The position numbers were made by a program, and so were the translations under genes. The notes under the pieces are model-generated. The model saw nothing but the letters and a program-made list of their open reading frames with translations. It was not told the origin of the DNA and did no database searches. Positions 3,001 to 63,701 of a stretch of DNA of 64,000 nucleotides are shown piece by piece. Source of the stretch: Prorocentrum cordatum (Eukaryota > Sar > Dinophyceae > Prorocentrales > Prorocentraceae); the NCBI GenBank assembly GCA_963575745.1, contig CAUYUJ010017971.1, positions 413,894-477,893 on the forward strand, given 5' to 3'. Every line of letters starts with the position of its first letter. Position 1 is the first letter of the stretch.

Positions 3001-6000
3001 TCCTGGCGCCGCCGAGAAGGGGGACATGCTCATGCTTCTTGCTGCATCGACGCTGGCAGTGGGCCAGTAAGGGGGGGGAGTTGGACATCACTCTCGTAGG
3101 CTTCTTAGCCGGACCAAGGTCCCCGACCCGCAACCCGTACATGCACTGATCCAGCTTAGAGACCGAGACCTCGGGTTTTTCGCACAGCACTCGCACGCAC
3201 TCCAGGTGCCAGGAGCTGGCAGTGTCAGGATGCTCAAGGGCAAAGAACCGTCCGTGAGCCATTTGGTACTCAGCCACTTTCATACAGAGGTGCATCGCAG
3301 CAAGACCCAACTCCTCCTCTTCCTTCTCACGCGTCGGATCCATCCGCCCCCAATTGGAGGCTCGAGGCGCACTGAAAGCTTTGCACATAGGCGTCATGAG
3401 GACGTAGAGCGGCTGTTCCTCCCGGAGCTGCCGCCACAGACGAGCCTCACCCTCGGGGGAGAGAAGATCGGTACCCTGAAGGATATCTAGAGGCTCCGAG
3501 ACGCTATGTCCCCGGCGCCGCAGCTCTGCTGTGACCTTGGACGGACTAAAGATTTCGAGAGCTAAGGCCCCGCCTCTCTGAGCCTCCCGCGCCTTCACCA
3601 TCTGGCGACGAGCCTTGCGGCCCGACCTAAGCCCCACGCCCCCTAAGGCACGGGCGGCAGCTTCGCGTACTTGTCGGGGCACCGACGGGGCCGCGGGAGC
3701 GACAGCTAGACGGTCATCTAAGGCCGCCGCTGTGAAGCGGTCCTCCTCAACCACGGTCACCTCCTCCACCTTCTCCGACCTCCTCTCCTCATCCTCCGCT
3801 TCTCCTCTCGGCACGCCCTTTTCGCACCAAAAAGTCACCTGGAGCACGGACTTCAAAGTCGATTCGAGAGCGCTACTTACCTCAGAGGCCCCAGAAGCGG
3901 CCCAAAGACCGGAGAAGAGCACGGAATCTCTGAGACCTCGAATCTCGAGCCATCTCGGTTCGGAGGGGATAGACGGGCCCGGAGGCTCCTCACCGTTGGC
4001 AGCGAGCGCAAGGCCCGCGAAGAAGGCCGAGCGCTCGGGCGGGCTTAGGCGAACCGGAGTCCACCCTTGACTCTGGCAAACCTGGAGAGGGCTGAGGAAG
4101 GTACCTGAGCTTTCACCCCAAAATCCGAGAACCTCCCTGGAGTTTTGCCGAAACCGGGGGGTCCCACGGGACCTGTTCAGGTAGGTAGCCAGATCCTTGA
4201 GGAAGATGTCGCGAGGATCGCGACTGAGCAAAGTGCGGCAGGCCACCTCATCCTGCATCGCCGGGAGGACCTCGATCACTCGCCGGTAGCGCCGTCCTCC
4301 TCCTTCACCGCGGGCAAGTAGCCTGCCGGATCCCTTCCCGACGAGATTGCTTGCACCATCGTCGCCATGCGAATGATGTCCGAGTCCTGGATCGTGGCCG
4401 GGCGGCTCGCGATCTCGGCCATCGTGGTCTCCGTCCAGGCCTTCTGGTCTGCGATCATGTTGCGCAAGTTCAGGAACGTCAGCTCGTTGTCGCGGCGCTG
4501 GGAGTCCAGCACGGTCGTCATGTCGTGGAGGGCCCTCTGCATCTCGGTCACCGTCATCGGCCGCGAGCCCGGAGGACTCGCACTGGACGATCCCGTCGCC
4601 TTCGGGACGGCCCCGAGCTCCATCGAGAGCGGAGGAGGCTTTACCGGGATGTAGCCCTCGCCGAACTTGACCATCGGGATCTTGAACTCCTCGGGCTCCT
4701 TCTTCGCGCCGCTCTTCCTCGTAGGCGGTGGGACCGGCATCGGGACCACCGGCGACTCCTGCCAGGGGTCGACGCCGGCGTCGAACGCCCGGACCTTGGC
4801 CTTGCACTCGTCCTTGTACTTGAGCTTGATCGCCTTCTTCTTCTCGATCGCGGTCCTCCGCTGGCGGCGCTCCTCCTTCTCGGCCTCCGTGAACTTCGTG
4901 AAGCCCAGCTGGAGAGTGCAGGCCGTGCACTTGACGTAGGTGCCGTGCTGGTTCTCCCCCTGCCACCTCGAGTGAAGAGGATGAAAGCATTCTTCCGGAG
5001 GCACCCGCTCGGCGATCAGGTTCGGCACGAGCGTCGTCGCGAGGAGAACCTGCGTGCAGGCGTGCGTGTGCCAGAACATCCGGAGCACGATCCTGCGCCA
5101 GCGCCTGCACGCGAGCTTCAGGTCCATCCAGCCGTTCACGAACCAGATCTCCTCCTGCTCGCTCATGGCCTCCAGGGTCAGCACCGCCTCCAGGTCCGTG
5201 TCGGGCTCCCGCTCCTGCTCCGACGGCAGCTCCTCCCAGTCGTCCATCTCCGTGTCCTTCGCTCCGTTCTCGAGCGCATTCGAGGCCCTCGTACGAAGCG
5301 AGCCCAGGCCGAAGCGCACCTTGCGGCCTGCCTTCGTCGCCGCCTTCCCTGAATGTGGAGAGCGGCCGCGCTGCACGACCTTCCTGCCGACGGCCGGCCG
5401 TCCACCGCTCGAGGACATCGAGCACACTGCGCCCTCGTCGGCCGCAAACGGGAAAGCCCGCCTCCTCCTCTGCTCGAGCCAATCTCTCCGGACATGGGGG
5501 ATTGGGTCCGCCGTATCGCAACCCCCTCGGGCCCCCGCTCGGAGTAGGAGGAGAGGGAGAGGGACTGAAGACAGCACTAGGACCCGAGCTGGTCCTACCT
5601 GGAGGGTCGCCTGCTTCTGGGGCCCCCCTTTCAGCATAGCTAAGAGAGCAAGGCCAACTCTCACCGGCCGACCCTCCCCCGCGGTCCTGAGAGACGAACT
5701 TCTGGGTCGACAGGCCCAGCTGGCTCTGGATCTCGCGGGCGAGCACGAACTGGGAGGCCGGCCGCTGCACCAGGTCCACCGAGCGGTGCCCGGACGGGTG
5801 CGTCACCAGGTCGAAAACCGTCGTGCAGCTGCCCACGCTCACGCTCATCTGGTTCTTCGCGAGGTCGATCACGGACCCCAGGCAGGTGAGGAACTTAGCG
5901 GGCAGCAGGGGAGGACAAGAGCCCTCCAGAATCAGAAACCCGATCACGCCACACCCGCCGAGGGCAACCGGCACCCAGGCCTTGCCGACAGGCACGGCGC

Positions 6001-7513
6001 GGCCTCCGATCCCGGAGGCGGCAACTCCCACCACCGGCGCCCAGTCAAAGACGATCAAGTAGCCGCGGCTCTTCAGGGCGGTCTCGAGCTCGAGGGCCTC
6101 GGCGCGGCCGACCAGCGCTTGGGCGGCAGCGGTGTCCACCAGGGCGCGCGAGCCTAGGTTCCTGAGCGTCACGTCCGCGAAGGTGGCCCGCACGATCTCG
6201 AAGGCTGCCGAGAAGCCCTCGGGGTCCTCATTCACAAAGAAGTACGTGAAGCCGCTGACCGGCGACTTGCCGGCTGACTTCTCCTTAGCGAGACGGTCCG
6301 CCTTAGACTGAAACGGATTGGTGCAGGTCTCGGCCCAATGGCCGCGCTGGCCACAGTTAGCACAGCGGGACTTGCGCCGAAAGTCCTTCTCGCCGATCCT
6401 ACGGAATCCTGGACGGGCAGGCCTCGAACTCTTCCGTCGATCAAAGAACTCACGATCTGTCTTCTTGGCCAGCTTGAGCTTCCGTGACTCGGTCCACGTC
6501 CTGCGGCGCTCCTTACCGAACTTCTCCTCCACGACGGCCGCGAACACTTCGACTGCCTCGTGCTCGTCCATGTCCTGCCCCTCCACCGCCGTCAGGAAGG
6601 CCAAAGCTTCATCTTCCGGGAGCTCGATCTCATCGTCGTCGTCATAGTAGACCTCAGGCGGAGGAGGAACACTCGCCGAGGAAGACGCTGCATCCTCCTG
6701 AAGGAAAGACTTCGATACCGCCACAGGGTTCGCGGGAAGAACTCGCTTCTCTTGAACATCCAAGAGGAGCAGCGCAGATCTGATCGATGCCTTGTCGGAC
6801 TTGCCACCTGCCAGCGTGCGCATGTTGATCTTGTTCTGCGCCGACAAGTTGGCGCCCTCCTCGAGGTACCGAGCGAGCACGTTGTCAGGAAGCGTCAGTC
6901 CACGTGCGGCAGCATCGGCCAACTGGGCGTCGCGACGCAGAACGAAATCCGTGATGCTCTCATTGCGCTGGATCATGTAGTCAAAGAGGGCATGATTGTG
7001 CGCCATCCGGTCGCGGTCGCCGGGGCGCTCCCCGTTGAGGATGCTCAGATGGTCGAGGAAGGTCTCGACTCCTCCCTCCTGCTCCAGGGCGTCACGCACG
7101 GGCTTGAACTTGAGCTGGAGGTCGACGGGGAGGGACTCGACCAGCCTCGACGCCTGGGACTCCAGCTGGTGCCCGGTCCGACTAGACCAGGCACGCACGT
7201 TACTACTGTACAACTCAAGGTGCTCTAGTCCGAGCCAGTTCGGAGGAGGTCCAAAATCTCGGCTTCGCCCAGGGCGCCAGGACGAGGTCTTCCACTCCTG
7301 AGAGTCCCACTCCTCGTCCCACGAGTCGCCTGCTGCGTCGCCGGCTGCGGCAGACCCGGTCCACCACGTCCTCCACGTGTCTCGCCAGCCAGAGCCCCAA
7401 CTCCAGCCGTCGCGCTCCCACCAGCGGGTGCCACCTTGCACCTGGATGCCGATGGAGCGCGCTCTGTCTGAGACGCTGCCAACCTCCTCGAAATCGTCGT
7501 CATCCGCCGGCAT
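1..7513 (-). CDS. Copia gag-pol polyprotein (partial, open at left edge)
   Basis: Translated from the ATG at 7,513 (M-P-A-D-D-D-D-F); no stop to base 1. Domains with residues counted from that Met: alpha-helical gag about 120-300; CCHC zinc knuckle CANCGQRGHWAETC starting at 384; retroviral-type aspartic protease ALVDTAAAQALVG with Asp460 (DTAA rather than DTGA); methyltransferase-like module about 1,317-1,480 (LEIFSP near 1,319, PMC with Cys1377, EHP at 1,427); gag-pre-integrase H..H/CDQC finger about 1,615-1,650; integrase core Asp1673, Asp1731, Glu1766, a DD35E spacing; proline-rich linker; RT from about 2,300 with IADAQNAF (Asp2423) and YGLNDAP. The YxDD box lies beyond the edge. The domains upstream of 5.6 kb and downstream of 4.28 kb share one frame; the stretch between is better explained by another frame. 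Products would build a cytoplasmic particle, copy the RNA and integrate the cDNA. Confidence 0.85.
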   Translation of the reverse strand, partial: MPADDDDFEEVGSVSDRARSIGIQVQGGTRWWERDGWSWGSGWRDTWRTWWTGSAAAGDAAGDSWDEEWDSQEWKTSSWRPGRSRDFGPPPNWLGLEHLELYSSNVRAWSSRTGHQLESQASRLVESLPVDLQLKFKPVRDALEQEGGVETFLDHLSILNGERPGDRDRMAHNHALFDYMIQRNESITDFVLRRDAQLADAAARGLTLPDNVLARYLEEGANLSAQNKINMRTLAGGKSDKASIRSALLLLDVQEKRVLPANPVAVSKSFLQEDAASSSASVPPPPEVYYDDDDEIELPEDEALAFLTAVEGQDMDEHEAVEVFAAVVEEKFGKERRRTWTESRKLKLAKKTDREFFDRRKSSRPARPGFRRIGEKDFRRKSRCANCGQRGHWAETCTNPFQSKADRLAKEKSAGKSPVSGFTYFFVNEDPEGFSAAFEIVRATFADVTLRNLGSRALVDTAAAQALVGRAEALELETALKSRGYLIVFDWAPVVGVAASGIGGRAVPVGKAWVPVALGGCGVIGFLILEGSCPPLLPAKFLTCLGSVIDLAKNQMSVSVGSCTTVFDLVTHPSGHRSVDLVQRPASQFVLAREIQSQLGLSTQKFVSQDRGGGSAGESWPCSLSYAERGAPEAGDPPGRTSSGPSAVFSPSPSPPTPSGGPRGLRYGGPNPPCPERLARAEEEAGFPVCGRRGRSVLDVLERWTAGRRQEGRAARPLSTFREGGDEGRPQGALRPGLASYEGLECARERSEGHGDGRLGGAAVGAGAGARHGPGGGADPGGHERAGGDLVRERLDGPEARVQALAQDRAPDVLAHARLHAGSPRDDARAEPDRRAGASGRMLSSSSLEVAGGEPARHLRQVHGLHSPAGLHEVHGGREGGAPPAEDRDREEEGDQAQVQGRVQGQGPGVRRRRRPLAGVAGGPDAGPTAYEEERREEGARGVQDPDGQVRRGLHPGKASSALDGARGRPEGDGIVQCESSGLAADDGDRDAEGPPRHDDRAGLPAPRQRADVPELAQHDRRPEGLDGDHDGRDREPPGHDPGLGHHSHGDDGASNLVGKGSGRLLARGEGGGRRYRRVIEVLPAMQDEVACRTLLSRDPRDIFLKDLATYLNRSRGTPRFRQNSREVLGFWGESSGTFLSPLQVCQSQGWTPVRLSPPERSAFFAGLALAANGEEPPGPSIPSEPRWLEIRGLRDSVLFSGLWAASGASEVSSALESTLKSVLQVTFWCEKGVPRGEAEDEERRSEKVEEVTVVEEDRFTAAALDDRLAVAPAAPSVPRQVREAAARALGGVGLRSGRKARRQMVKAREAQRGGALALEIFSPSKVTAELRRRGHSVSEPLDILQGTDLLSPEGEARLWRQLREEQPLYVLMTPMCKAFSAPRASNWGRMDPTREKEEEELGLAAMHLCMKVAEYQMAHGRFFALEHPDTASSWHLECVRVLCEKPEVSVSKLDQCMYGLRVGDLGPAKKPTRVMSNSPPLLAHCQRRCSKKHEHVPLLGGARTHAAESFPPELVSSLASGVEDGALAFHRQRSRAREVGSGTLFEEGEASEAELWTFPTEEADPQVSDEEDFRRPSPGSVEGKPGTRGPGKQASLDLALQQEVARLHVNLGHPSTEDFLRALRVAGARLEVLAWVREQFKCDQCASHTRASWRRKAHLPHTYAFNKVTAIDLFYLDIEGKSTPVMNIIDHGTSFQQCALLSDDTAKTVWAAFLRWWVRPFGAPEVLVCDGGGEFEGLFARGCEHLGVMQHVIPANSPHQNGKCERHGGLVKEALSKAAQSVSPKSREETDLLLCEVVASKNRGFHRGGFSPSQLVFGQNPRIPRSLLSDDPVDLIGSDDVSARAVDLDSAAGEFARQHRIREEARKALASLDARSRLAEASRARPHQEREFRPGDWVYVFRRITASNRSHSLQRDRWTGPGVVIYQSSGAGGSKGGGAVWVAMRAKLLKCTAEQVRLATRSESLGAELLDSAAFDRLREDIRSPGKRSGAVDVTAEGPPPPEANDAPDSAPPEASSVRQQLSIPPRGPVSQAPSVVSQGTRVPSGPAGSLVPIAGSAPSDPGSELGAPSESRGGPRASQDPGPQEKRSRLTPIEEYPQGPSVMQRVAAIQGSPSESAAAQTGLAPSPPAGGSAASAVPASVEPLSRPEPEVPTQDVPMARERPPPARALGSGRDIFVPRARLSSGARASSEAPAARPSGRSRSPAARPEASESLAAFGGKAEEAGGSTDAGEEGVEDGGSESDWDAPNEEQDHFLVQELLEWSAVRGAPDLASFFLSSLGEELSYPTAASDKTQPKINPRGAEVRLKDLSPADRARFSESGAKEWAAMLATGAVRVLSPEESVSARRRFPDRILSSRMVRRLKPVQGVGSLPEPKSRWCVHGHQDPDSETLEVYAPTPQSESVLMCLQIAASFGWTLTIADAQNAFCQSQRLERPRGAIFVEPCSGLPIGPDQLIELVAPVYGLNDAPLLWHRTLTDWLVGEGFTKSLLEPCLWLKRGRWGK
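3050..3580 (-). other. Methyltransferase-like module in the Copia polyprotein
   Basis: The stretch starts with LEIFSPSKVTAELRRRGH, resembling motif I of class-I methyltransferases. It continues with PLDILQGTDLL (a motif-II-like acidic segment), LYVLMTPMCKAFSAPR (PMC where a C5 methyltransferase has PPC) and RFFALEHPDTASSW (EHP where it has ENV/ENP), ending near CMYGLRVGD and KPTRVMSNSPPLL. The order and spacing match the modules in the other three elements of this window. The catalytic cysteine position is kept but the PP dipeptide is not, so activity is doubtful. Confidence 0.55.
4276..5664 (-). CDS. Copia polyprotein segment with zinc-ribbon-like CxHP...CxxC motif, in a shifted frame
   Basis: This 462-codon frame is shifted relative to the gag and integrase frame. 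It has no ATG at its upstream end (first triplet GTG at 5,664), so it is probably read as part of the polyprotein. From MSSSGGRPAVGRK at about 5,420 it looks like protein: an acidic stretch, the segment ECFHPLHSRWQGENQHGTY followed by CTACTLQ (a CxHP-x-GNQHGTY-x-CxxC finger that I associate with dinoflagellate Copia polyproteins), then a Lys/Glu-rich helix and a coiled-coil-like region (EMQRALHDMTTVLDSQRR). It ends at TGA 4,278-4,276, where the main frame resumes with IEVLPAMQDEVAC. One +1 and one -1 change are needed; indels, programmed shifts or assembly error are all possible. Confidence 0.6.
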   Translation of the reverse strand: MRVGLALLAMLKGGPQKQATLQVGPARVLVLSSVPLPLLLLRAGARGGCDTADPIPHVRRDWLEQRRRRAFPFAADEGAVCSMSSSGGRPAVGRKVVQRGRSPHSGKAATKAGRKVRFGLGSLRTRASNALENGAKDTEMDDWEELPSEQEREPDTDLEAVLTLEAMSEQEEIWFVNGWMDLKLACRRWRRIVLRMFWHTHACTQVLLATTLVPNLIAERVPPEECFHPLHSRWQGENQHGTYVKCTACTLQLGFTKFTEAEKEERRQRRTAIEKKKAIKLKYKDECKAKVRAFDAGVDPWQESPVVPMPVPPPTRKSGAKKEPEEFKIPMVKFGEGYIPVKPPPLSMELGAVPKATGSSSASPPGSRPMTVTEMQRALHDMTTVLDSQRRDNELTFLNLRNMIADQKAWTETTMAEIASRPATIQDSDIIRMATMVQAISSGRDPAGYLPAVKEEDGATGE

Positions 7514-7738
7514 GCCGGCGGCGAGTAGCTATCTCCAACTTCTCGCGCCAGGAGCCTGGCACGCGCTGCCCTCGGCACGTCCGCTCCTCTCTGCTCTCTG
7601 CCTCACAACCAGAGGCTCCGCTTACCACTGTCACAGGATAAAGGGGGCTCTGAGAGTAAAGGAGTGTAAGAGAGAGGGCGGAGGATACTTTATGCACGCG
7701 CACTAGAACTCTCGGCGACTCAAAGGGGAGAGTCGCCT

Positions 7739-29800: not shown

Positions 29801-32800
29801 CAGGGACGGCGAGGCCAAGCACATCGACCGCATCGCAGAGGATATCTGCGAGGCCGCGTGGAGCAACACAGTGGACCGCAGGGCCGGCATTATCAACTGG
29901 ATCTGGTGGCAGGATCGCCAGGGCGAGCATGACAGCAGGGACAGGCTGGTGGCGGAGCACTGGCGCACCCTGGACAACATACGTGCCGAGTTTCGTGGAG
30001 TACTTGGAAGGCGGGCTCCGCCTGAAGGCACAAGGCGACGTCGCAGGCTTGAACCAGACCCACCAGCAGGCGCAGGTGCTGACCAGTGGCGAGGTGAAGC
30101 TGATGAAGGCAGCCATGTTTTGCCGAAGTCAGAGCGGGACGCCTCGGTGCTCCTCGAGCCGAGAGCGTCCCAAGACGTCGCCACTAGTTCGCCGGATGCC
30201 TCGAAGGGCCACGCTTTGCCAAGGTCAGAACCGGCAGCCTCGGTGCTCCTCGAGCCGAGTGCTGCCTCACGCGTCGCCACGTCGCCGGATCAAAACAAGC
30301 AGTCCAGCAAGAGAGGCACCTACAGCCTGCAGCCCAAGCTACAGAGGCCCGACGGACACCTGTTCCACGAGCGCATGGCGGTCAGCCCGACCCAGACGCT
30401 CATCAAGGCCTTAGAGGAGGTGGGGGACGACTGGGAGACCCTGCTGCCGACCCTCTACTGGATGGCGAACATAATCCAGACCAAGACTGAGGCTCTGAGC
30501 CAGTGGTGCTGGAAGCTGGTGGGCGCAGATATCCTGGCCTCTCACCGCCAAGATGCTCGAGATCAGTACCATCGCATTGCAGGAGACATACGCGACGCAT
30601 GGGACAAGAGGCAAACGGACGTAGCGTTTGCACGGCTGAGGGGAATGGGCATTGGTTCTCAGAAGCGCATGTTGAACAAGTGTCTCCCGTCGGTCAAGCT
30701 CCTCGACGGCACGTACGCCACGTCGCAGGCCCAGATGGGGAACAGGTGGCTCCAGCACTTCAGCCTGGTAGAGTTCGCGGCGGACGTGCCGATCGTGGAC
30801 CTCCACAAGCTCATGCAGGCGCAGCTTGAGAAGGGAAGCCTGATGCCAGACGTACTCGACCCCAGCTGCGTCCCGACGTTGGCGGACATGGAGCGTGCGA
30901 TGAAGATCACAAAGGACTCAGCGCCAGGGGTCGACGGCCTGATGGGGAAGCTCTTCCGCACACAGCCGAAGACACTGGCGGCGGCTTACCACCCACTGGC
31001 AACCAAGTTTGCCTGCACAGGAGTGGGGCCGGTACAATGGAAAGGAGGCTTCTACAGACACCACCACAAGAAAAAGCAGGCCGAAGAGTGCGGCAACCAC
31101 AGGTGCTTCGCGGTCACGGCCATGGTGGGCAAAAGGGTGAGGCACTTCTACCGGTCAAAGGTGGCGGAGTACTTGCCACAAGCCGTTGGAGACCGCCAAT
31201 TTGGAGGCGTCAGGCGCAGAGGCACTCAGCATGCGTCTGTGGTCACCAGGATGCTGCAGTCAGCGGCGTCCGCCAACATGCTGTCCTTCGCGGCAATCTT
31301 CATGGACGTCAAGAACGCATTCTACTCCATGGTCAGGGAGCTGGTGCTGCGCACGCCCATGGACAAGGCAGACAAGGACGCGATCGCCGAGTCCACGGCC
31401 GTCCCGCCCACGGCCCTGGAGATCCTGAAGAAGAAGCTGGAGGAGGACATGCCGCTGCTCCACCGTACGGAGGCCAGTGAGCATCTGAAGGCATTGGTCG
31501 AGGAGCAGTACACGGCCTCATGGTTCGTCTGCGAGAGCTCAGACCACGTTGCCCTGGGTACCAAGTCCTCGATCCCAGGCCAACCCCTCGCTGACCAGAT
31601 CTACGAGATCGCCATGGCGGAGGCCATCAGGATCTCAGAGGCGAGGATCGAGGAGGAGGGCTACGGCATCTTTGTCACAGGTGCCAACGTACGCTCGCTG
31701 GCGCAGCAGCTCGACAGCGACCTCGACTTCGAGAAGATACCAGGCCACAGCGTGGCCTTTGCGGACGACGGCACATTCTTCTTCATCGGCAAGGCTGAGG
31801 AGGCGATGGATGCGGTGGCGGTCATCGCGGGCATCGTCCTGGACACTTTCGCGGAGTTCGGCCTCATCCTCAACCTTGACCCTGGCAAATCGGAGGTGCT
31901 CTTTGCCTTCGCAGGCCAAGGGGCGAAGGGATCGAGGAGGACCCTATGGCATGAGTGCCATGGAAGGGTCAAGCTCAGGTCGAAGCACTACGAGGGAGCC
32001 GTCATCCACGCAGTGCACAACCACGTGGCGCTGGGGACGCTCATCGACGACCACGGCGCGGTGTACCCAGAGCTCTACCGCCGTGCAGCCACCACTACAG
32101 CCGCTCTCAGGAAGCTGAGAGAGAAGGTCTTCCGCAGCCACCAGCTGGACCTGCCTACCAAGAGGGTATTCGCTGACGCCCTGGTATGCTCGTCGAGGTG
32201 CTTCTCACAAGGCAGCTGGCCAGGACTCACGAGGGCGGAGGCCAAGTATCACCACGCCATGGTCATGGCAGTCTACAGGGCGGCGGCGGGGAAAAAGTTC
32301 GCCACCAAGGAGGACGGTGAGCTGGACCTCGACGCCTACCCAGAGGCGGAAGATGAGGCACTGCTCGCCAAGGTTGGAAGGGCTCGGCCGGAGGACCTGC
32401 TGAGAGTAGCGAGGCTAGGGCTTTTCGGCGAACTACTGCAAGCAGGACCACCCCTCGCTTTCGCGACGATGGCCCAGCTCCTCCTGCGGCCCCAGCATGC
32501 CAAGAGGCAGTCCTGGCCGCAGATGCTAATGGGGGACCTCCGCTGGCTGCAAGGCTACTCGGCGGACCTCCACGACCTTCCGGATCCCAGTGATGAGCTG
32601 AGGCCTTGGGAGATGATGATCATACGCTCGCACTCCTTGTGGAAGTACAGGCTCAACGACACGCTCAAGGCGGCGGCAGCACAGCTGAGCAGAGGTCACG
32701 CGGCGCGCATGGCAGAGAAGCGCTTCTTCGCCATAGTGCAGCCAGCGGGAGTGCCGTATTCCACAAGGGAAGGCAGCCCTTTCGGGGCCCCGCAGGCAGA

Positions 32801-50424: not shown

Positions 50425-50750
50425 ATGCCCGCAGGGGTTCTTGCGGCCTCGCCCGAGTTCTTTCTCCTTTGCTCCCCGTGCGGCAGCAGCGCGGGCAATT
50501 CCGATAGTTCGGGCGGCTCTTCGTGGGAGCTGGTCGAGCTGGAGTCCTCCGACGATTAGCAGGTGCCGAACCTGCCGCCGAGTGCGCTGGAGAGCGCAGA
50601 CGAGACGGCTCGTTTCGGGTGCTGGCCGTTCGGGCTCCTGGTGTGGTCGCTCTTCTCGCTGGTGAGTGATCCGATCGTGGACCAGGATTATGTTGACGAG
50701 CCCGAGGGTCTCGAGATCCAGATGCCAGTGGAGCCATGGTCTCGCCGCTT
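50425..50750 (+). pseudogene. DIRS-2 gag-like gene, 5' fragment, cut by the DIRS-1 insertion
   Basis: The frame from ATG 50,425 (MPAGVLAASPEFFLL) runs to an in-frame TAG at 50,557. The same frame then continues (PNLPPSALESADETARFGCW, a hydrophobic segment LLVWSLFSLV, and MPVEPWSRR) to base 50,750, where DIRS-1 begins. Joined to 58,610 the frame is restored as PWSRR-F-YRLSA, which aligns with the gag start of DIRS-1 (MAPWSRWNRVYV). The TAG may be decay or, as in DIRS-1, a stop within a longer reading frame. The upstream end of the element is not visible. Confidence 0.6.
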
Positions 50751-51080
50751 TACACAGCACCCACACTCGAGAGCCAGGCTTGAATCTATGTTAACTCGGA
50801 GCGTGCCTATACCTTTAAATCTTGATTTTAGAGTGCTGGGGGCAGGCGGGGGTAGAGCGACAACCCTAATGAAAAGAGGCCCCACAGAATATCCGACGCA
50901 GCAGCGGGAGGAGACACACCCACAGGACAGCGAGCGGCTCGAGAGGAGGGGGCACCCTCCGAAAGTATCTGTTCGCAGCGGCGGGGCCCCATGCGAGGCC
51001 CGAAACTTAAAAGGCCGAGAGGTTCCTGACCGTGCCTCGGCCCACGGTCGGGCCACAAAGCCTCGCGGCGAAACCCCCAG
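50751..51080 (-). repeat. DIRS-1 split repeat B2 (3' end)
   Basis: Copy of 51,248-51,577 at an offset of 497 bp. It forms the outer 3' end of the element; its terminal bases TACACAG meet host DNA at 50,750. A 32-bp unique spacer (51,081-51,112) separates it from A2. Confidence 0.95.
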
Positions 51081-51112
51081 AGCCCATGCAAGCCCAGGGG
51101 GGGCAGGGTTGG

Positions 51113-51247
51113 GAGCCGAAACTTTGCGCAAGGAGCGGAGGGTCAAGCACGAGAGAGAACGAGCTAGCCCTTCTCCTAAAATACAGTTGAGGCGGCTATC
51201 TGAACGTTTAAAGGGGGTGTGTAAAAGTGTGTTTAAAAACGCGTATT
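51113..51247 (-). repeat. DIRS-1 split repeat A2
   Basis: Identical over 135 bp to A1 at 58,475-58,609 (offset 7,362). Its outer end ACGCGTATT joins directly to TACACAG of B1, recreating the end-to-end junction of the element. Confidence 0.95.
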
Positions 51248-51577
51248 TACACAGCACCCACACTCGAGAGCCAGGCTTGAATCTATGTTAACTCGGAGCG
51301 TGCCTATACCTTTACATCTTGATTTTAGAGTGCTGGGGGCAGGCGGGGGTAGAGCGACAACCCTAATGAAAAGAGGCCCCACAGAATATCCGACGCAGCA
51401 GCGGGAGGAGACACACCCACAGGACAGCGAGCGGCTCGAGAGGAGGGGGCACCCTCCGAAAGTATCTGTTCGCAGCGGCGGGGCCCCATGCGAGGCCCGA
51501 AACTTAAAAGGCCGAGAGGTTCCTGACCGTGCCTCGGCCCACGGTCGGGCCACAAAGCCTCGCGGCGAAACCCCCAG
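51248..51577 (-). repeat. DIRS-1 split repeat B1
   Basis: Inner copy of the 330-bp B repeat, between the YR gene and A2. Open in several frames but shared non-coding status with B2 argues against a gene. Confidence 0.95.
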
Positions 51578-51862: not shown

Positions 51863-53077
51863 TCATTGCCTTCTCGCCCTGCTGCGGCCAGCCGTAGACG
51901 GGCGGCTGGTAGGCTCCGCGCCCCCGTCCGCCATGCTCTCCAGCTGCGGCAGCACGACCTCGTCGTTCTTGGCTGCCTCGAGCTCCTGCACCATGTCCTG
52001 CGCCAGCGGCGCCAGCACGGCGTCGGAGCGGTAGATGGCCTCCGCGATCTTCTGGGCCGGCCTGCGCCAGAAGGCCCGCCCCCGCTCAAGCTGCTCGGGG
52101 GTGAGCCGGCTCCGCTGCTCGATCAGCACGTGCACCTTCGTGTAGCGCTGAAGGGCCGACGTGGTCTGCCAGCGGCCCTTCCGGCGCGCCGCCTCGAGCG
52201 AGCCACCCGCGGCGATGTAGACCGCCGCGCCCGCGTGCCTCAGCGAGCGCGGAGGCCCGAAGTCCGCCAGGCCCGCCCTGTCGAAAGCCAGCCGCCACGC
52301 CTTCCTGTACTTGTCCTGCGAGAGCGGGAAGAGGAGGTCCCGTGGCGCCGCGCCCTTGCCGATCGCCCGCAGGATGGCCTTCGTCACCGGCCACGAGACC
52401 ACGACGCCCTGGTTCGCTCCCGTCTTCACCTTCTCGCCCCGTTCTCTGCGGCCCAAGGTGAGCCCGACCTCCCCGTCGGGCCCGACTGCCACGTCCGTCT
52501 TCCTGAGCAGGCCCCAGTCCTGCTCCCTCAGCCAGCCGTCCAGCTGCAGCAGCACCGCGGCCCCCTCGTACAGCTGGCCGTGCTCAAAGAGGTCATAGAG
52601 CACGCACCCCACGGCCTCGAACGGCACCGGCGCCCCCTCCTTCTGGAAGCCCATCCTGGACCAGGACTTCAGCGCCCTGGCAGCGACGGGGAGCCGATTG
52701 CGGTGATCCTCGAAGATGTGCATGAAGCCATTGAACAACGCAGACGCCCTGCTGAAGGGTAACTGCATCACGTAGCACATGTCCGATATGTACCCGCCGA
52801 GCGCCGCATCCCTCTCCTCGTAAGTGGAGAAGGGGAGACCGCGCCGCTTCACGTCCAGGAGGAAGGCCCTCACCTCCTTCTCGTAGATCTGATTCGTGGC
52901 GTCGTCCACGGCGTGCACCACGAGCCTCACACTGTGATGCAGCCTGTCGCTCGGTGCCTGCTCCCAGGCCCGAGCGCCCCTCTTAGCCAAAGGGGGGGGC
53001 TTAGCCGAGGTCGTCGCGGGGCCGTCCGCTCCGCGCCGCGGCATCGCCTCGCACAGCCTCAGCCCGCTCATCGCCAT
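51863..53077 (-). CDS. DIRS-1 tyrosine recombinase
   Basis: 404 aa from ATG 53,077, which overlaps the RT gene stop as TGATG. Catalytic pattern of tyrosine recombinases: Arg192 in LLRKTD; RSLRHAG with Arg280-His281; GRW with Trp303; and the nucleophile Tyr312 in ALQRYTK. The first His of the usual HxLRH is Arg here (Arg277). The upstream part (YEKEVRAFLLDVKRRGLPFS) fits a helical core-binding domain. The enzyme would insert the circular cDNA without cutting a staggered target, matching the absence of a target duplication. The frame is the same as that of gag, and is open far upstream through the RT gene. Confidence 0.85.
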   Translation of the reverse strand: MAMSGLRLCEAMPRRGADGPATTSAKPPPLAKRGARAWEQAPSDRLHHSVRLVVHAVDDATNQIYEKEVRAFLLDVKRRGLPFSTYEERDAALGGYISDMCYVMQLPFSRASALFNGFMHIFEDHRNRLPVAARALKSWSRMGFQKEGAPVPFEAVGCVLYDLFEHGQLYEGAAVLLQLDGWLREQDWGLLRKTDVAVGPDGEVGLTLGRRERGEKVKTGANQGVVVSWPVTKAILRAIGKGAAPRDLLFPLSQDKYRKAWRLAFDRAGLADFGPPRSLRHAGAAVYIAAGGSLEAARRKGRWQTTSALQRYTKVHVLIEQRSRLTPEQLERGRAFWRRPAQKIAEAIYRSDAVLAPLAQDMVQELEAAKNDEVVLPQLESMADGGAEPTSRPSTAGRSRARRQ

Positions 53078-56000
53078 CACAAATGCGAAGCTCCAGGCGG
53101 TCCTCGTCGGGCCCGGTCTTGCAGCCGCTGAAGTAGCTCCCTCGGCACTCCACGGCCCACGTGGCCCGCCACCGTGTCCTCCGCCGCGCCTATGCCTTGA
53201 CCCCTCGAGGGGCCGTCTGCCAGGTTGAGCTCGCTCGGCACCCACCTGAAGTACCCGCGGATCCTGCAGACCATCTGAATGATGCCACCGATCCTCGCCA
53301 GGTGCAGGAGGTCCCTGGCAGACGAGCGCCCTTTCTTCAGGACGCCTAAGCTCACCAACGAGTCGGTGAAGAAAAGCACGCGGTGGTTCCAGCTCTGGGA
53401 CGTGCGACTGAGGTGTCGGAGCACCGCCACCACCGTCCGCAACTCCAGGACGTTGTTGTGCTCGGCGTGAGACCATCGTCCCTGAAACAACACGTGCCAC
53501 TTCCTCTCCAGCCAATGGCCCAGCAACGGCAGGGCTGGGCCAGTCGCACGCACGACGCGCCCGCGGTCCCCCTGCAGGCGAAGCCGGGCCCCCGCTGGTA
53601 TCGAGTCCCAGTGCGGCTCGAGCTCCTGCAGAGTGGACGCGCATGTCCTGCACAACTCCAGCGGGTAAGCACAGGCCACCTGAGTCCACCGTAGCCCACA
53701 TGGTGATCGTCCTCGTAATTCTCGGTGAGCTCGGCCAGTCCGACTGCAGCGGCTCGAGGAGCACAAGCACACCCGCTGTAGCGTCGCCATCTTCTTCACA
53801 TTGGTGATGAACGTAGTTGGCTTCCTCCATTCCTCGCCATACATGCAGTAATCCACCTCCACACGGAAAACCCCCTCGAGATCCAAGAGCGCGGTCATTG
53901 GCGCGAACGCCCATATCATGCTGGTCCTGGGGTTCTCGAGGGTGAATCCAATGCCAAGGCGTAGGCAGATCTTGACCACCTCTACTGCTATCAAAGCCAA
54001 AGCGTTCCCTTCGTCGATCTTGGCCTGGTCCGTCTCCGTGCAGTCCGGCAGCCCCCATGGGTGATCGCTCGACCTCAGCGGCGGCTGTCTTGCTCTCGAA
54101 AACGTCGCGCACGGGGGGGCGACATGCACCCACCAGAACCAGCCAGTCCTCAACCTCCGCAACAGCAGCTCCAAGTTCTCTGTGACCAGTACGTCGAACT
54201 CCACGCCCCGCTGGATGTCCCAGGCCTCGCCCCACGAGTCGGTCAGCTCCCTGATCGCGTCTAGCAGGCGAGAGCTCCCAGCGAAGAGCTCCAGCACTCC
54301 AGGTCGCCCCATGGTAGGAGCGGCCGGGAGGTCCTCCTCCTCGCCGATCGCCTCCTGCGCCCGCTCGATCTCGGTGTAGCTCTGCTCGGCCAAGGGCCCC
54401 CAAGCTCCCCCATCTCCTCGGGCAGCTTCCCGTCGGACGTCCTCCTCCGTGCAGTCGCAAGCCAGGGCGCCGAAGCCCTCGTTGGACGCATCCGTCATAT
54501 ATGCTCTCGGCCACCAGCCCATCTCCAGGTTCGACTCCATGTAGACCGAGAGTGACGCAACGGCCCTCAACTCGCTCCTGACCTCCTCGGGCAAGCGATG
54601 TGGCACAACACTCTCCTCCTCGGTGAACTCCCTCAGCCACCTGTAGGTCGCGTCCAAAATCGCAAACGAGGGGCGGAAGACCATCATGGTCCAAGTCCAG
54701 TGCCCGACCAAAGAAGCCACCGCTGCAGGTCTGAGAGCCACTTCCAACACCGCCGCCTCGGTAGCTAGCACGACCTGCTCCATCTTCTTCGGCTGGATCC
54801 TCAGCGTGTAGGGTCTCGTGGCGGCAATGCACAGGCCCAGGCCGTTCTCCATCCCTTCTCCCCAGGCCTCCTTGTGCACCGCGAGCCCCTTGCCGTTCAG
54901 GAGCTCCTTGATCATCTCCTTGTCCTCCAGGATCTTCAGCTCGCCGTCCTCGCCCTCGAGGGTGAAGCCGATGTAGTCGTCGATGTACAACATCAGCAAG
55001 AACCTGATCGCCTCCTCCTCCGATAGGCCAAACGACGGGGTGGGCTTGCCGTAAGTCAAGCTGGGGGCCTTCAGGGACTCGAAGCTCGCCTCCAAGCAGC
55101 TGTGGGCCAAGAACACCGCCCACGCCGAGCCCATGACTAAGCTCGAAGCCCCAATACCAATGTCCTCCTCGCGCGGCTTCGGCAACGTCACGCCCTGCTC
55201 CATCCCGTACTGATACAGCTCCTGCGGCGAGACATCCGCCACCACAAAATATTCCGCCGAATACGAACCCCAGTGCAACCGATAGAACCAGTCCGGCGCG
55301 TCGCCCTGGAAGGAGAAGAGCCGCCGTCCACGCAACGCCGCCTCGTCCAGCTCCAGGAGCGCGAGGCCCGCGGGGCTGCCCAGAGGTACCCAGGGGGGAT
55401 CCACGAAGAGCAGGTTGACTCTTCGGCAGTCCCAGATCAGCCGAGACTTCAAGATACCACCAGTCTTGGGGTCGAAGTCCTTCGCCACCGTGAACAGCCC
55501 GACATGTTCGCGCATCTTCGTCACATATGCTATCATACCAGCCTGCGCCATCCGCAGGGCAAGTGCCAAGCGCTCCTTCTTGCTCCGCCACGCCGGGTCC
55601 GAGTAGCTCTTCGTCGCCTCGTACTTTTCCCAGTCGACTTCCCCCGAGCCCTTTATCATCAGCTGGCTGGCCTCTGTGAGGTAACGTCCAGCGAGGCTCG
55701 AGATCGCCGCCACCTCCAAGCTCTGGGTCCCCGGCGCTGGGAGCGACACCTGCTCCGCTCTCAGAGGGCACAGGTCGCCCTTCCTCAACTGCGGTGAAGT
55801 CTTCGATGCCGTAGCTGTCGTAGACCTCGATCCCTTCGCAAAATACTCCGTCGGGCTCCCTCCTGCCAGGCGGCTCAATGCCGCCCTGCCGTCGTTGATG
55901 GTCCCCCACTTCGCCCTCGCGGCGTGAAGGTCCCAGGCTTCCGTCACCAGCCTCTTCTGTAGCGGCGTACTCGCACTCCAGTCCGTCTGGCACGTCTGCT

Positions 56001-58339: not shown

Positions 58340-58474
58340 CAGCAGCCAGCCGGGACGCCCGATGGCCGGCGTCGTGGCGGCGCCCGAGCCTGTCGGGCTC
58401 GGGGCGAGCAGGGGCTGGAAGCTACCCCTCTCTGATGGCTCGAGTGCGGGCCTCGCCCGCGAAACCCGCTCCTC

Positions 58475-58609
58475 GAGCCGAAACTTTGCGCAAGGAGCGG
58501 AGGGTCAAGCACGAGAGAGAACGAGCTAGCCCTTCTCCTAAAATACAGTTGAGGCGGCTATCTGAACGTTTAAAGGGGGTGTGTAAAAGTGTGTTTAAAA
58601 ACGCGTATT
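58475..58609 (-). repeat. DIRS-1 split repeat A1 (5' end)
   Basis: Identical to A2 at 51,113-51,247. It forms the outer 5' end of the element; base 58,610 is the first base of the interrupted DIRS-2 gene. Confidence 0.95.
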
Positions 58610-60354: not shown

Positions 60355-60531
60355 GAGTCAAGGAGCTTCAATTGGGGCCACTCGGTTTCGAGCCGGGGGG
60401 CCCTTGCAGCTGGCGTCGTGGTGTCCCTGCGCGTCGGCTTGTTTTGGCTAGTGTATTCTTTCTGCTGCAGCTGACTCGCATCATCGCCGTCGACTGGCCC
60501 GTGAGCTTTTGCACCGCGAATTTGGGCTTTC

Positions 60532-61719
60532 ATGTCTCGGCGGCGGGACATCCTGTCCGAGGTGGTGCTGTTCGCTCGCCCGGAGCGCCCCGCTTCGACT
60601 TCTCGTCGGGTGCTGTCGCGCTGGAAGGAGGAGATGGAGCTGGTGGAGACGGCGAACCGTTCTCTCTTGGCGTTGCGTCAGCTCTACCGTGGGAGTCTGG
60701 ACGACAGTCTACTGGGCCTGGCCGACTGCTGGGGCCATGGGGTCGTGCCCGACAACTTGGACGGGGACCTCTCTCGGCGGGTGCTGGGAGAAGTTCGTCG
60801 CCAGTCGCCGCCGTCGACTACACCCTCACAAGGAGCCGCGCTTCTGCGGCTGCGCCCTGCCGCCACTGCGGCGGGCAATCAGTCCCAGTCCACCTTCAAA
60901 CAGAGGGTGGCCGAACTTCGGAAGAGGGGTGCTGGCAGAAGTGGACGGCTGCCAGACAGGGGCGAGACGTTTCCAGCTCAATGGGACCGAGTTGCCCTAC
61001 CTCCCCCGGGGAACAGACCTGTGAGTGTAAGGTCTGCGTCGCCTCGCGTGGCACAGAAGTTGGAGATGTTCAAGGAGGAGATGTTGAGAGAGGATGGCGA
61101 GGCTTGTGTTCAGGCCTGCGAGATACGCAACTACGTGGACCCGCAGTTCCGCAAGAAGAAGGAAATGTTGCAGCTGGCCCGCAGGATGGCTTTGGCGGGG
61201 ATGCTGTGCCGCACTGCAGTGAAGGTGGACGAGGTCGGGCTCTTTTGCGTCTTAAAGAAGGCGGAGCTTGTGGGGGGCGAGCCCGAGGTGACGCTGAGGC
61301 TGGTGTTCGACCAAAGGCGCTCCAACATGCGATGCCAGTCTCCCCCGTGGTGTGGCATGGGCGGCGTCAGTGCGATGTCGTTCTTGGACGTGTCCGAGGA
61401 GATGAAGGAGGATGGCGTGACCATGCGCTTCGGCACGGGCGACCTTCCCGACTTCTACTACACGCTGGAGCTGGGGGAGCAGCTGGCGCAGTACTTCGTG
61501 CTGCCAAGCATGTCTGGGGATGCGCTGGACGCGCTGCTTCCCGAAGGTTCGTCTTTGCCTGGGAGCGGGCCCTACGTCGGAGTGAAGGTTGCGTTGATGG
61601 GTTTCTCCTGGGCGTGCTGGATGGCTCAGACGACCATGGAGGACATCTTCAATGCTGGGCCCCAGTTCGGGCTTTCCTCGCTTTCAGACGGCCAACGTCT
61701 GGCCGAAGGCGGGCCTTGA
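60532..61719 (+). pseudogene. DIRS-2 RT, N-terminal part
   Basis: 395 codons from ATG 60,532 (MSRRRDILSEVVLFARPE). Contains the pre-RT helix (NYVDPQFRKKKEMLQLARRM, parallel to SYSDPAWRSKKERLALALRM of DIRS-1), EVTLRLVFDQRRSNMRC, GTGDLPDFYYTLEL and VKVALMGFSWACWMAQTTM. It stops at TGA 61,717-61,719 before the catalytic box, but the same frame continues behind the stop with HYEYIDDFGIMG, so the stop or a nearby indel disrupts the enzyme. Confidence 0.7.
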
Positions 61720-62350
61720 CCCCATCTCAGTCGGGATCTACCTGCTGCGCACTACGAGTACATCGACGACTTTGGCATCATGGGTCTGGACTTCCCGACA
61801 AAGCCTGGCCAGGAGGCGGCGGCGACGGTGGAGGGGATCTGGCTCGGTGCCAAGGAGTTGGTGGTTTCCGCGGGCTTCAAGGTGCACAAGGATGCTTGCT
61901 CGGCGGATGCTCGCATGATCGGTGGCGATCTTCGGGGGACTCGTCTGGCGCCGAACCAGGACAAGATGTGGCTGGCGGTCTTCGGCACACGGGAGATCCT
62001 GATCCACAAGTGGGAACTACCCGACACCGTCGCGCGGATCGTTGGCATCCTGTCCTGGGGCTTCTTGATCTCCCGTGGTGCTTTGAGCGTCTTCGCGGAC
62101 GCGCACTCCTGGTGCATGGAGTTCCGGGGTGGAGCTCGGCGCGAGGCCCCACGGGAAGTGCTGAGGGAGTTTGCTGCGGCCTCGGCGTTGGTGCCGCTGA
62201 TCTCGGTGGACCTCTCGACGCCCTGGGACCCGATGGTGATGATGTTCGACGCGAGCCTCTACGGTGGCGCGCTCATCTCTACGGTGGCCACGGTGGAGGA
62301 GCAGCGTCGAGAAGCACGATATGCAGTTCGAGGAGGCTGGACCGTTTGGA
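61720..62350 (+). pseudogene. DIRS-2 RT C-terminal part and RNase H start
   Basis: Same frame as the preceding entry: YIDD box at 61,759-61,770, LAPNQDKMWLAVFGTREIL thumb region, then the RNase H start MMFDASLYGGALIS at about 62,240. After about 62,330 the frame changes again (RLDGHFFVLGGDAWCEGEAF in another plus frame). Confidence 0.65.
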
Positions 62351-62540
62351 CGGGCATTTCTTCGTCCTGGGCGGGGACGCCTGGTGCGAGGGGGAGGCCT
62401 TCAGACGCGTGGGCACCGACGTGGAGTTGGGCACCCGGATCCGAGTTCCGCCTGTGCACGAGTGCTGGGACGACATCGCTTGATGGAAGGAGGTTGCGCG
62501 CTGCCGCTGGGAGGAGAAGGAACACATCAACCTGCTGGAG

Positions 62541-63701
62541 ATGCGCACGGGGGTGGCCGCAACGAGGCACTCGGCCCGCACCCGTGCGAGCTGGGGGAAG
62601 AGGCACCTACGCATCACGGACTCTATGGTCTGCCTCGGCGGCTTCAGCAAGGGCAGATCGGCCAGTCGGCCCATTCTGATTTTGTGCAGGAGAATGGCCG
62701 CCCTCGACCTCGGGCGCGGTAAGCGGGAGTACTGGCGCTGGGTGCCGTCGGACCGCAACCACAGCGACGGGCCGAGCCGAGGTTTTCCGATTGGCCAGGC
62801 CCCGAAGGAGCGGAGGACGGACGAGCTGGTGTTGCCGGAGAAGGTGGCTTCGAGGATCGAGGCCCTGGCGGAATTGGCGGAGGTGGACCCATTCCAGCCG
62901 CTCAGGATGGGCGTCTCGATCCAGGTGAAAGTGCTGCGCTTCGTCCACCTCTGCAGCGGCCACACGCGCATCGGGGACCTGGAGGACTGGCTGCTCAGGA
63001 TCGCGGGCTCGCGGGGCTACCTGATGATCTGCACCAACGTGGACATCGGCTTCGGGGCGGAGTTCGACCTGGCGGACGAGGTCAACGTGCGGAGGCTGGA
63101 GCTGCTTGCGGAAGTGGAGACGGACGGCGGACACTCAGGCCCTTCATGCTCTACCTGGTCGCGGGTTGAAGCTTGGGAACGCGCAGTTGCTGAGCAGTTT
63201 GAGGATCCTGAAGTCGATCGGGCTCAACGGCGGCTCGGTGTCATCGAGCATCCTGCCGATCCGGGTTGCCCGCCGTTTCCTTCGATCTTCGTGACCAAAG
63301 AGCTGATGGACTGGGAGGCGCAGTTGGGTGCCTACCGAGTGACCTCCCCGCAGTGCATGCGGGGCTGCCCCGCGCTGAAGTTGACGACGCTCACGGGGAC
63401 GGCCTTCGGGATGCAGAGGTTTGTTCGCCCCTGCGTGCACGGGAACCACTCGGCGAGCCTCTGCGGGAAGGACGAGAGCGGTCGTTTTCGGACCAGGGTG
63501 GCCCAGGCGTACTCTTCCGACTTCTGCAGGACGCTGGCGGAGTGTCACGTGGACGCGATGCTGACCATGCAGGAGAGACAGGAGGCCGACCTGACCGAGA
63601 GGGCCGTGGAGCAGTTGATCTCAGAGACCCTGGAGCGCAGGCGCCGGGACGCTACGTTGCTGGAGTCACTACCTGCAGCTTTCCTTCGAGCCTCGGGCTG
63701 A
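62541..63701 (+). CDS. DIRS-2 RNase H C-terminal part and methyltransferase-like module
   Basis: 386 codons in a third frame. MRTGVAATRHSARTRASWGK to RITDSMVCLGGFSKGRS (RNase H Asp) and YWRWVPSDRNHSDGPSRG (RNase H end) come first, then a linker and the methyltransferase-like module (62,925-63,420). The last 90 residues are helical (LTMQERQEADLTERAVEQLI). The true start is upstream in the disrupted part. Unlike in DIRS-1, the module lies after RNase H. Confidence 0.65.
   Translation: MRTGVAATRHSARTRASWGKRHLRITDSMVCLGGFSKGRSASRPILILCRRMAALDLGRGKREYWRWVPSDRNHSDGPSRGFPIGQAPKERRTDELVLPEKVASRIEALAELAEVDPFQPLRMGVSIQVKVLRFVHLCSGHTRIGDLEDWLLRIAGSRGYLMICTNVDIGFGAEFDLADEVNVRRLELLAEVETDGGHSGPSCSTWSRVEAWERAVAEQFEDPEVDRAQRRLGVIEHPADPGCPPFPSIFVTKELMDWEAQLGAYRVTSPQCMRGCPALKLTTLTGTAFGMQRFVRPCVHGNHSASLCGKDESGRFRTRVAQAYSSDFCRTLAECHVDAMLTMQERQEADLTERAVEQLISETLERRRRDATLLESLPAAFLRASG
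62925..63420 (+). other. Methyltransferase-like module in DIRS-2
   Basis: VLRFVHLCSGHTRIGDLEDW (motif-I-like, close to VLNLFCGHRRKQDIQ of the LINE), GGHSGPSCSTWSRVEAW (PSC at 63,141-63,149, Cys kept, one Pro replaced by Ser), GVIEHPADPGCPPFPS (EHP at 63,246) and QCMRGCPALKLTTL. Similar in size to the other three modules. Confidence 0.5.

Follow-up and report, generated by a model that had tools for sequence, protein, structure and literature searches.

Retroelements of three classes in the dinoflagellate Prorocentrum cordatum carry what appears to be one small methyltransferase domain. We analyzed a stretch of 64,000 nucleotides (nt) from this species (contig CAUYUJ010017971.1, positions 413,894-477,893), hereafter the window, and scanned the genome of 4.13 Gbp in 21,875 contigs for related copies. 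Within the window, a Copia element, a long interspersed nuclear element (LINE) and two DIRS elements (DIRS-1 and DIRS-2) each contain a methyltransferase-like module. Comparisons of sequences and profiles indicate a single protein family for the four segments: compact C5-cytosine methyltransferase domains of phage and virus type, about 215-265 amino acids (aa) long. We consider it likely that a compact methylase of this family was acquired by retroelements, moved among LINE, DIRS and Copia elements as a cassette and methylates cytosine.

The original prediction had picked out a motif-I-like segment, a cysteine motif and an EHP or ENP in each element. All eight named peptides are found at the places given for them, and EHP or ENP follows the cysteine motif in the same order in all four translations. 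Besides these motifs, the modules have in common a conserved C-terminal region absent from the original prediction. It consists, in order, of a C..G......[KR].T-like stretch, which is weaker in the LINE and DIRS-2 modules, a Cys/His stretch and a C-terminal T..A..YP..LC..A-like stretch. The earlier estimate of about 180 residues was too short, as the modules cut here span 214-265 residues (218 in the broken DIRS-2 copy).

We compared the modules as single sequences with phmmer, using 2,000 shuffles in each direction. DIRS-1 matched LINE at 42-43 bits and Copia at 31-34 bits, and no shuffle did as well in either direction. The same was true of LINE/DIRS-2 (14-15 bits) and DIRS-1/DIRS-2 (12-14 bits) by a small margin, the best shuffles of these two pairs reaching 8-11 bits. 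The remaining phmmer pairs were not significant: 24 and 15 of 2,000 shuffles equaled Copia/LINE, 339 and 398 equaled Copia/DIRS-2, and 7-68 of 2,000 did so when other Copia copies or an intact DIRS-2 copy were used. In profile-profile comparison with 60 column shuffles for these two pairs, Copia/LINE scored 143 against a best shuffle of 21, and Copia/DIRS-2 scored 86 against 20.9 in a repeat run without the -glob option. An earlier column-shuffle control of Copia/DIRS-2 with -glob was odd, giving a best shuffle of 128 against 74 for the real pair. DIRS-1/DIRS-2 scored 137, and shuffle maxima across these pairs were 21-25. A hidden Markov model (HMM) built from eight database relatives and free of window sequences scored DIRS-1 at 218 bits, LINE at 67, Copia at 40 and DIRS-2 at 23; other family HMMs gave the window DIRS-2 copy 4.5-54 bits. 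Chance likeness, which the original prediction had named as its own possible undoing, is rejected by the pairwise and profile-profile shuffles, and the profiles align far above them.

Structure prediction likewise bears out the methyltransferase assignment. AlphaFold2 modeled the DIRS-1 module with a predicted local distance difference test (pLDDT) of 95.6 and a predicted template modeling score (pTM) of 0.91, and the Copia module with 93.9 and 0.90. The DIRS-1 model matched PDB and viral structures; DNMT3A/B are the best PDB matches of the Copia model, which also matches M.HhaI. DNMT3, DNMT1 and M.HhaI rank first among the fold matches, with DNMT3 the best in the PDB. Both models thus have the C5-methyltransferase Rossmann fold of M.HhaI and the DNMTs, as far as predicted structures go. 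The best viral structure matches are 210 and 218 aa long, the latter from Tetraselmis virus 1. A PDB sequence-profile search returned one match, DNMT2 (4h0n), which was not significant (E 0.3). A Dam-type N6-adenine methylase was rejected as the identity of the modules; there is no such Pfam match, and the PDB entries listed are C5 enzymes.

C5 methyltransferases bind S-adenosylmethionine (SAM) through the glycines of motif I (FxGxG), and the PPC of motif IV contains their catalytic cysteine. A PxC or PPC motif is present in all four modules, as PMC in Copia, PPC in LINE and DIRS-1, and PSC in DIRS-2. At least one motif-I glycine is kept in DIRS-1 (FAGS), LINE (FCGH) and DIRS-2 (CSGH), and none in any of 21 Copia modules. 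FAGS or FSGS, PPC, ENP and KPT occur in all 22 distinct DIRS-1 copies, and the 29 readable LINE copies in the genome all have the cysteine, 27 of them with EHP. Among the Copia modules, 19 of 21 have the cysteine (two lack it), 19 of 21 have C-x3-C-x3-H-x-H, and D31, D37 and E115 are invariant across nine aligned modules; the window module also has an E[HQ]P motif. Because the motif-I glycines are absent, SAM binding by the Copia modules is doubtful, and this branch may be altered or inactive. The loss looks derived, because metagenome proteins of the Copia clade keep SPPC or APPC (P0055, P0057-P0060 and P0063) and P0059 has YGQG at the motif-I place.

No large target-recognition domain is present; the modules stop after 214-265 aa, the last part being a short Cys/His stretch. 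The place of that domain in larger C5 enzymes is occupied by a conserved Cys/His knuckle (C-x3-C-x3-H-x-H), for example in the Copia module, which is possibly a zinc site. The target-recognition part is small in compact phage members too, and because phage and viral relatives are also about 200-220 aa long, the small size is shared with a compact viral family. The modules had been suggested to be a minimal or repurposed fold. They are indeed small, but this is common to compact phage-type methylases and is not a sign of recent reduction; repurposing is possible for Copia, where the glycines are lost.

None of the four window modules matched the Pfam family PF00145 up to E 10. In alignments A2 and A4, one member each matched it at E 0.01: the phage-like P0049 and P0057, the latter under the cut-off. 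P0049 matched both PF00145 (E 3e-7) and phrog_757 (E 3.7e-26). The DIRS-1 module matched phrog_2882 (E 2.5e-5), and among the 38 aligned members of A2, nine matched phrog_757 and seven phrog_2882 at E 0.01; the Copia module matched neither up to E 1. When a phage profile was compared with the module families, the probabilities were 98.9% for Copia, 98.8% for DIRS-1, 96.0% for LINE and 72.9% for DIRS-2. Annotated phage relatives mostly bear the name DNA methylase or methyltransferase, by annotation and not by assay. One compact relative is gp128 of Bacillus phage BM15 (222 aa), the middle one of three tandem genes annotated as cytosine-C5 methylases (gp127-gp129; L085:1462-4200). Relatives are encoded at 25 IMG/VR loci, found through one conserved motif; a search of viral contigs with the DIRS-1 module alone gave three pattern stretches and no relative.

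The modules are present in many copies. The genome matches, lower bounds in which only the best candidates were scored, number at least 104 for DIRS-1 (with flanking RNase H in the query), at least 145 for LINE, at least 150 for Copia and at least 225 pieces for DIRS-2, often two per copy. Twenty of the LINE matches lie in frames of 2,839-2,888 aa. For the ratio of nonsynonymous to synonymous substitution rates (dN/dS), 28 DIRS-1 loci were fetched, of which 26 were readable and 22 were used after four same-place duplicates were dropped. The LINE sample was the best 30 of 145 matches, less one with a stop, and the Copia sample was 20 of 150 matches, selected for spread and long frames; for DIRS-2, six places were fetched and five were readable by a motif filter. 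As a ratio of means over best-scoring or chosen copies, and so biased to intact ones, dN/dS of the DIRS-1 module was 0.142 in one subfamily, 0.135 in a second and 0.144 between the two. The corresponding values were 0.123, 0.134 and 0.217 for the DIRS-1 reverse transcriptase (RT) and 0.078, 0.237 and 0.222 for the C-terminal part of RNase H. The LINE module gave 0.152, against 0.215 for the 300 codons upstream and 0.261 for the 120 codons downstream, and the Copia module gave 0.25 over all 20 copies, with synonymous sites near saturation, and 0.07-0.13 in close groups. These data suggest that selection has kept the module intact in the DIRS-1, LINE and Copia families.

The module sits at a different place in each element (Table 1). 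DIRS-1 is a DIRS retrotransposon, with a tyrosine recombinase and split repeats in the DIRS order A-coding-B-A-B; because its 135-nt and 300-nt repeat pairs are both 100% identical, this copy looks like a recent insertion. Pfam matched no RT or RNase H in the DIRS-1 frame, and by motif reading the module lies inside RNase H, flanked by halves at TDASNEG and NNVLELR. The DIRS-2 RT matches that of DIRS-1 at 118 bits, and the DIRS-2 module follows RNase H. No split repeats of DIRS-2 were found in 50,500-64,000, where the window ends near the module. The DIRS-2 module of the window has an internal deletion near 63171, after module residue 85, and the missing stretch is present in five relatives read elsewhere. 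DIRS-2 relatives include 21 listed in 1,095-aa frames, and five of six fetched have the whole module; the window copy is a broken example of an intact family. The LINE frame (2,846 aa) runs from RT motifs through a zinc finger to the module, toward the C-terminal side. We assigned the LINE class by motif reading, because its RT has diverged beyond the reach of Pfam and PDB sequence searches, neither of which found a match; Pfam found nothing relevant in the RT of another LINE subfamily either. In the Copia element, the module lies 5' of the integrase motifs, and RVT_2 lies downstream of integrase, as in long terminal repeat (LTR) Copia elements. The class follows from the RVT_2 match and a motif reading of the integrase, for which Pfam gave only rve_3 at E 0.18.

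We built two trees of the family. The first has 72 rows (53 retroelement or algal and 19 phage or virus), is rooted between these sets and leaves out the window DIRS-2 module (WIN_dirs2) and VIR_L093; 17 of the 25 viral loci passed its PPC/EN motif filter, and the best-scoring locus was left out. The second has 81 rows, 28 of them phage or virus, and takes in all 25 viral loci by match coordinates. Class labels of database proteins were assigned from the search of origin or from neighboring motifs, and in both trees some rows, most of them viral, are flagged for unusual composition, and P0069, P0033 and P0041 form long branches. In both, a 100/100 branch splits the retroelement and algal modules from the phage and virus proteins. 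Clades for Copia (99/96 and 98/96 in the first and second tree), LINE (100/99 and 100/98) and DIRS-1 (100/100 in each) were recovered. DIRS-2 groups with LINE rather than DIRS-1 in the first tree (95/81) and with P0030 in the second (99/80), where the next starred set around DIRS-2 joins Copia and LINE (95/81). A single DIRS-1 plus DIRS-2 clade, a group chosen for the approximately unbiased (AU) test after the first tree had been seen, was rejected by 35 log-likelihood units in the first tree (p-AU 0.024) and 40 in the second (p-AU 0.009). One intact DIRS-2 module, L060, also leans slightly to the window LINE module (48 bits) over DIRS-1 (42 bits). Exchange between unrelated element classes, as originally predicted, is therefore supported by the 100/100 branch and by rejection of the joint DIRS clade despite RT kinship. 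It is the best reading of the sequence comparisons and not proof.

Several observations weigh against a shared, functional and exchanged module. The match of DIRS-2 to the phage profile is weak, with a score of 39 against a shuffle maximum of 23, and two of five family HMMs give the window DIRS-2 copy just 4.5-5 bits. PF00145 reaches only P0057 (E 9e-4) and P0060 (E 0.08) on the retroelement side, both under the cut-off, and the Copia modules are wholly without motif-I glycines. The fork of DIRS-2 with LINE is not starred in the second tree, the AU-test group was picked post hoc, and another intact DIRS-2 module, L059, compared as a single sequence, scores higher with DIRS-1 (57 bits) than with the window LINE module (32 bits). 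The choice of copies for dN/dS favors intact ones, and in DIRS-1 subfamily A the module exceeds both RT and the RNase H C-terminal part in dN/dS, making it the least constrained of the three.

The analysis shows homology, the predicted folds of DIRS-1 and Copia, motif conservation, copy number, selection and tree conflict; activity, substrate, benefit and the direction and number of transfers are inferred. The domain would combine a SAM-binding Rossmann core, a catalytic cysteine in the P-x-C/PPC loop, ENP or EHP, a 'YG..w.KPT'-like motif in most branches and a short Cys/His knuckle that replaces the target-recognition domain. It was probably acquired once, within the sampled tree, by algal or dinoflagellate retroelements, and the cassette would then have moved between LINE, DIRS and Copia elements. 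Its landing sites would have differed: inside RNase H (DIRS-1), after RNase H (DIRS-2), after RT and the zinc finger (LINE) and before integrase (Copia). Made within the polyprotein, the domain would be carried along with the RT complex and could bind nucleic acid through the Cys/His knuckle and adjoining domains instead of a large target-recognition domain. Its most likely function would be cytosine methylation of the element's own new complementary DNA (cDNA) or of DNA at the target or integration site. New copies would then resemble methylated host DNA and might be spared by nucleases and deaminases or pass unrecognized. The LINE version might act on its RNA instead. Copia has a decayed SAM motif but retains the Cys, acidic and Cys/His residues, and this branch may have an altered cofactor pocket or serve in binding. 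A bolder version, which we put forward tentatively and rate a little short of even, is that dinoflagellate retroelements came to share a mini C5 methylase of virus type as a 'public good' cassette. After one capture it would have passed between LINE, DIRS and Copia elements to class-specific sites, reached hundreds of copies and become a working part of retrotransposition, with a new cofactor use or function in Copia.

The main rival to exchange is repeated capture from one donor pool, in which every class acquired a compact C5 methylase separately, the donors being related genes of viruses or hosts; we judge this doubtful, yet a serious contender. One capture per group predicts that each group forms one clade, as Copia, LINE, DIRS-1 and, in the second tree, DIRS-2 do. 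P0009, P0012, P0018 and P0019 are open reading frames (ORFs) of 239-264 aa with almost nothing besides the module, and the DIRS-1 modules are nearest to this group in the first tree, with weak support (85/66). These four are possibly donor genes or separate element ORFs, and the latter would weaken this rival. The 100/100 branch, which keeps the retroelement and algal modules together, and the separation of DIRS-2 from DIRS-1 despite their RT kinship argue for the cassette instead. We think it unlikely that the modules are no longer enzymes and serve as nucleic-acid-binding or structural domains with a methylase fold, an idea most plausible for Copia and certain for no branch. The absence of a large target-recognition domain, the missing glycines of all Copia modules and the two without cysteine fit such a role. 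On the other side, DIRS-1 and LINE keep a motif-I glycine, the cysteine and ENP or EHP almost without exception, Copia largely keeps its cysteine and invariant acidic residues, and the compact phage relatives carry methylase annotations. Methylation of element RNA or a tRNA primer, in the manner of the m5C enzyme DNMT2, has a similarly low probability in our view. DIRS and Copia elements make free cDNA, a natural DNA substrate, and DNMT3, DNMT1 and M.HhaI lead the fold matches, whereas the nonsignificant 4h0n match and a suggestion of RNA methylation for LINE DNMTs in the excerpted text of PMC5890265 point to RNA.

Last among the rivals, the modules might be elements already published, SymbioLINE-Dnmt and SymbioDIRS-Dnmt3 (de Mendoza et al. 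2018, PMC5890265), or the Prorocentrum versions of these, in a more diverged state, which we regard as improbable. As far as the excerpts of that paper go, both describe a cytosine methylase domain in LINE and DIRS elements of the same host group, with the DNMT in the DIRS Pol frame and two DIRS domain orders, and DNMT3 is our best PDB match. However, PF00145, the model that found the published domains, matches none of our four modules, and our sequence relatives are compact phage methylases. SymbioLINE-Dnmt has its DNMT in ORF1, upstream of RT, whereas our LINE module is C-terminal to RT; SymbioDIRS-Dnmt3 is a eukaryotic Dnmt3, a comparison made by description. Copia, the most abundant retrotransposon group in Symbiodinium, is described there as free of DNMT domains, in contrast to the Copia module here. 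The same excerpts state that retrotransposon DNMTs can methylate CG de novo, propose self-methylation of cDNA and report that SymbioLINE-Dnmt did not methylate DNA when tested in yeast. These results make such a role plausible for the DIRS-type modules and leave it as a possibility for those of LINE type.

The closest known system to the cassette is the set of compact C5-type methylases of phages and viruses (PHROG 757, 2882 and 363; BM15 gp128; Haloferax tailed virus 1 gp60; a putative cytosine methylase of Tetraselmis virus 1). The members examined have about 200-220 aa, P[PD]C, ENP, C.YG...KPT and a short C-terminal part, and they align over nearly the full length. They are stand-alone viral genes, whereas the modules lie inside polyproteins and across the 100/100 branch. 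The Dam-like N6-adenine methylase of DIRS elements (PMC5890265 and PMC6338049, in excerpt) is also an accessory methylase domain, but Dam-like enzymes are described as structurally unrelated to C5 enzymes, and our modules have the PxC/PPC loop and C5-type fold matches. In the charophyte Klebsormidium nitens, KnitGypsy-Dnmt3 (PMC5890265) is similar in placing a cytosine methylase in Pol of an LTR retrotransposon; it is a Gypsy element with Dnmt3, and here a Copia element has a compact, motif-I-degenerate domain. A 2025 paper (PMC12344493) mentions, in its available passages, DNMT3 in LTR Copia and DIRS elements, citing PMC5890265. It thus counts Copia, as we do, among the DNMT-bearing retroelements of streptophytes and dinoflagellates, but it concerns DNMT3 rather than a compact lineage negative for PF00145, and the source it cites names Gypsy in the passages we have.

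Cytosine methylase capture by dinoflagellate LINE and DIRS elements has been known since 2018 (PMC5890265, excerpts). The compact module itself was unreported in the open-licence PMC papers searched, and as far as this literature shows, what is new is a compact phage-like lineage missed by PF00145, its presence in Copia, its place C-terminal to RT in a LINE and its sharing across classes. Prior papers, in the parts available, describe methylase capture by retroelements as independent events with enzymes of Dnmt3 type or orphan ones; in the present elements a single compact unit recurs in three classes. If active, the modules would be a large element-encoded supply of methylation in dinoflagellate genomes and a possible contributor to their heavy methylation. 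An active module would also be a small enzyme for studying C5 methylation in the absence of a large target-recognition domain.

Table 1. Modules, motifs and other element features in the window.
Feature	Position	Strand	Basis
Copia methyltransferase-like module, 214 aa	2936..3577	-	Translation; motifs; AlphaFold2; PDB matches
Copia motif-I-like segment, LEIFSP	3542-3559	-	
Copia cysteine motif, TPMCKAFS	3371-3394	-	
Copia candidate catalytic Cys codon (TPMC)	3383-3385	-	
Copia reverse transcriptase (RVT_2, part; reaches window edge)	20..385	-	Pfam PF07727, E 1.6e-9
Copia integrase region (HHCC finger, CDGGGEFE stretch), 3' of module	2303..2689	-	Motif reading, frame residues 1614-1742
Copia gag zinc knuckle (CCHC)	6317..6367	-	Pfam PF00098, E 0.0032, under cut-off
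LINE methyltransferase-like module, 265 aa	33366..34160	+	Motifs; translation; genome copies
LINE motif-I-like segment, LNLFCGH	33390-33410	+	
LINE cysteine motif, GPPCETWS	33603-33626	+	
LINE candidate catalytic Cys codon	33612-33614	+	
LINE-type reverse transcriptase region (PGQPLADQ, FADDG)	30999..32298	+	Motif reading only
C2H2 zinc finger between RT and LINE module	32832..32900	+	Pfam PF00096, E 7e-4, under cut-off
DIRS-1 methyltransferase module, 233 aa	53614..54312	-	Motifs; AlphaFold2; PDB and viral structure matches
DIRS-1 motif-I-like segment, LELFAGS	54274-54294	-	
DIRS-1 cysteine motif, APPCATFS	54097-54120	-	
DIRS-1 candidate catalytic Cys codon	54109-54111	-	
DIRS-1 RT/RNase H/module open frame, 1,068 aa	53077..56283	-	Frame; RT and RNase H by motif reading
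DIRS-1 tyrosine recombinase	51866..53095	-	Pfam Phage_integrase, E 5e-4, under curated cut-off
DIRS-1 3' repeats: B 51246-51545, A 51113-51247, B 50749-51048	50749..51545	-	100% identical direct repeats
DIRS-1 5' repeat A	58475..58609	-	135 nt identical to 51113-51247
DIRS-2 module, 218 aa left	62916..63569	+	Motifs; comparison with relatives elsewhere
DIRS-2 motif-I-like segment, VHLCSGH	62943-62963	+	
DIRS-2 cysteine motif, GPSCSTWS	63138-63161	+	
DIRS-2 Cys codon	63147-63149	+	
DIRS-2 RT and RNase H, broken (in-frame stop 61717-61719, frame change near 62480)	60505..62800	+	Frames; RT similarity

Some further features of the elements were seen. The middle part of the Copia polyprotein (4276-7528, minus strand) seems, by eye, to be in another frame than the first and last parts, either because this copy has undergone a frame change or because the shift is programmed. 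At 27057-27596 in the LINE frame, an RNase H-like stretch (YTDGSGG ... FYTDNNYVV ... HVGGH, by eye) precedes an endonuclease-like part and RT, an unusual order; a PDB sequence search with this N-terminal part found nothing relevant. The 5' repeat of DIRS-1 overlaps the first frames of DIRS-2 in the opposite orientation. Tracts of long simple sequence at 14169-17298 and 34441-36099 keep several frames open on both strands.

The database relatives of the modules are short proteins. The named ones are Skav221328 (P0010), whose prefix we take to stand for Symbiodinium kawagutii, one 'hypothetical protein' (P0071) and entries from Pyramimonas. P0070, where Pfam found nothing, is followed in frame by what resembles, by eye, the beginning of a Copia RT. 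The entries from Pyramimonas sp., a green alga, that match the modules are P0029, P0047, P0052, P0053 and P0066. P0052, P0053 and P0066 are 67-83% identical to the window Copia module, and P0029 is very close to the LINE module by eye. Such similarity suggests either contamination of the data set or transfer.

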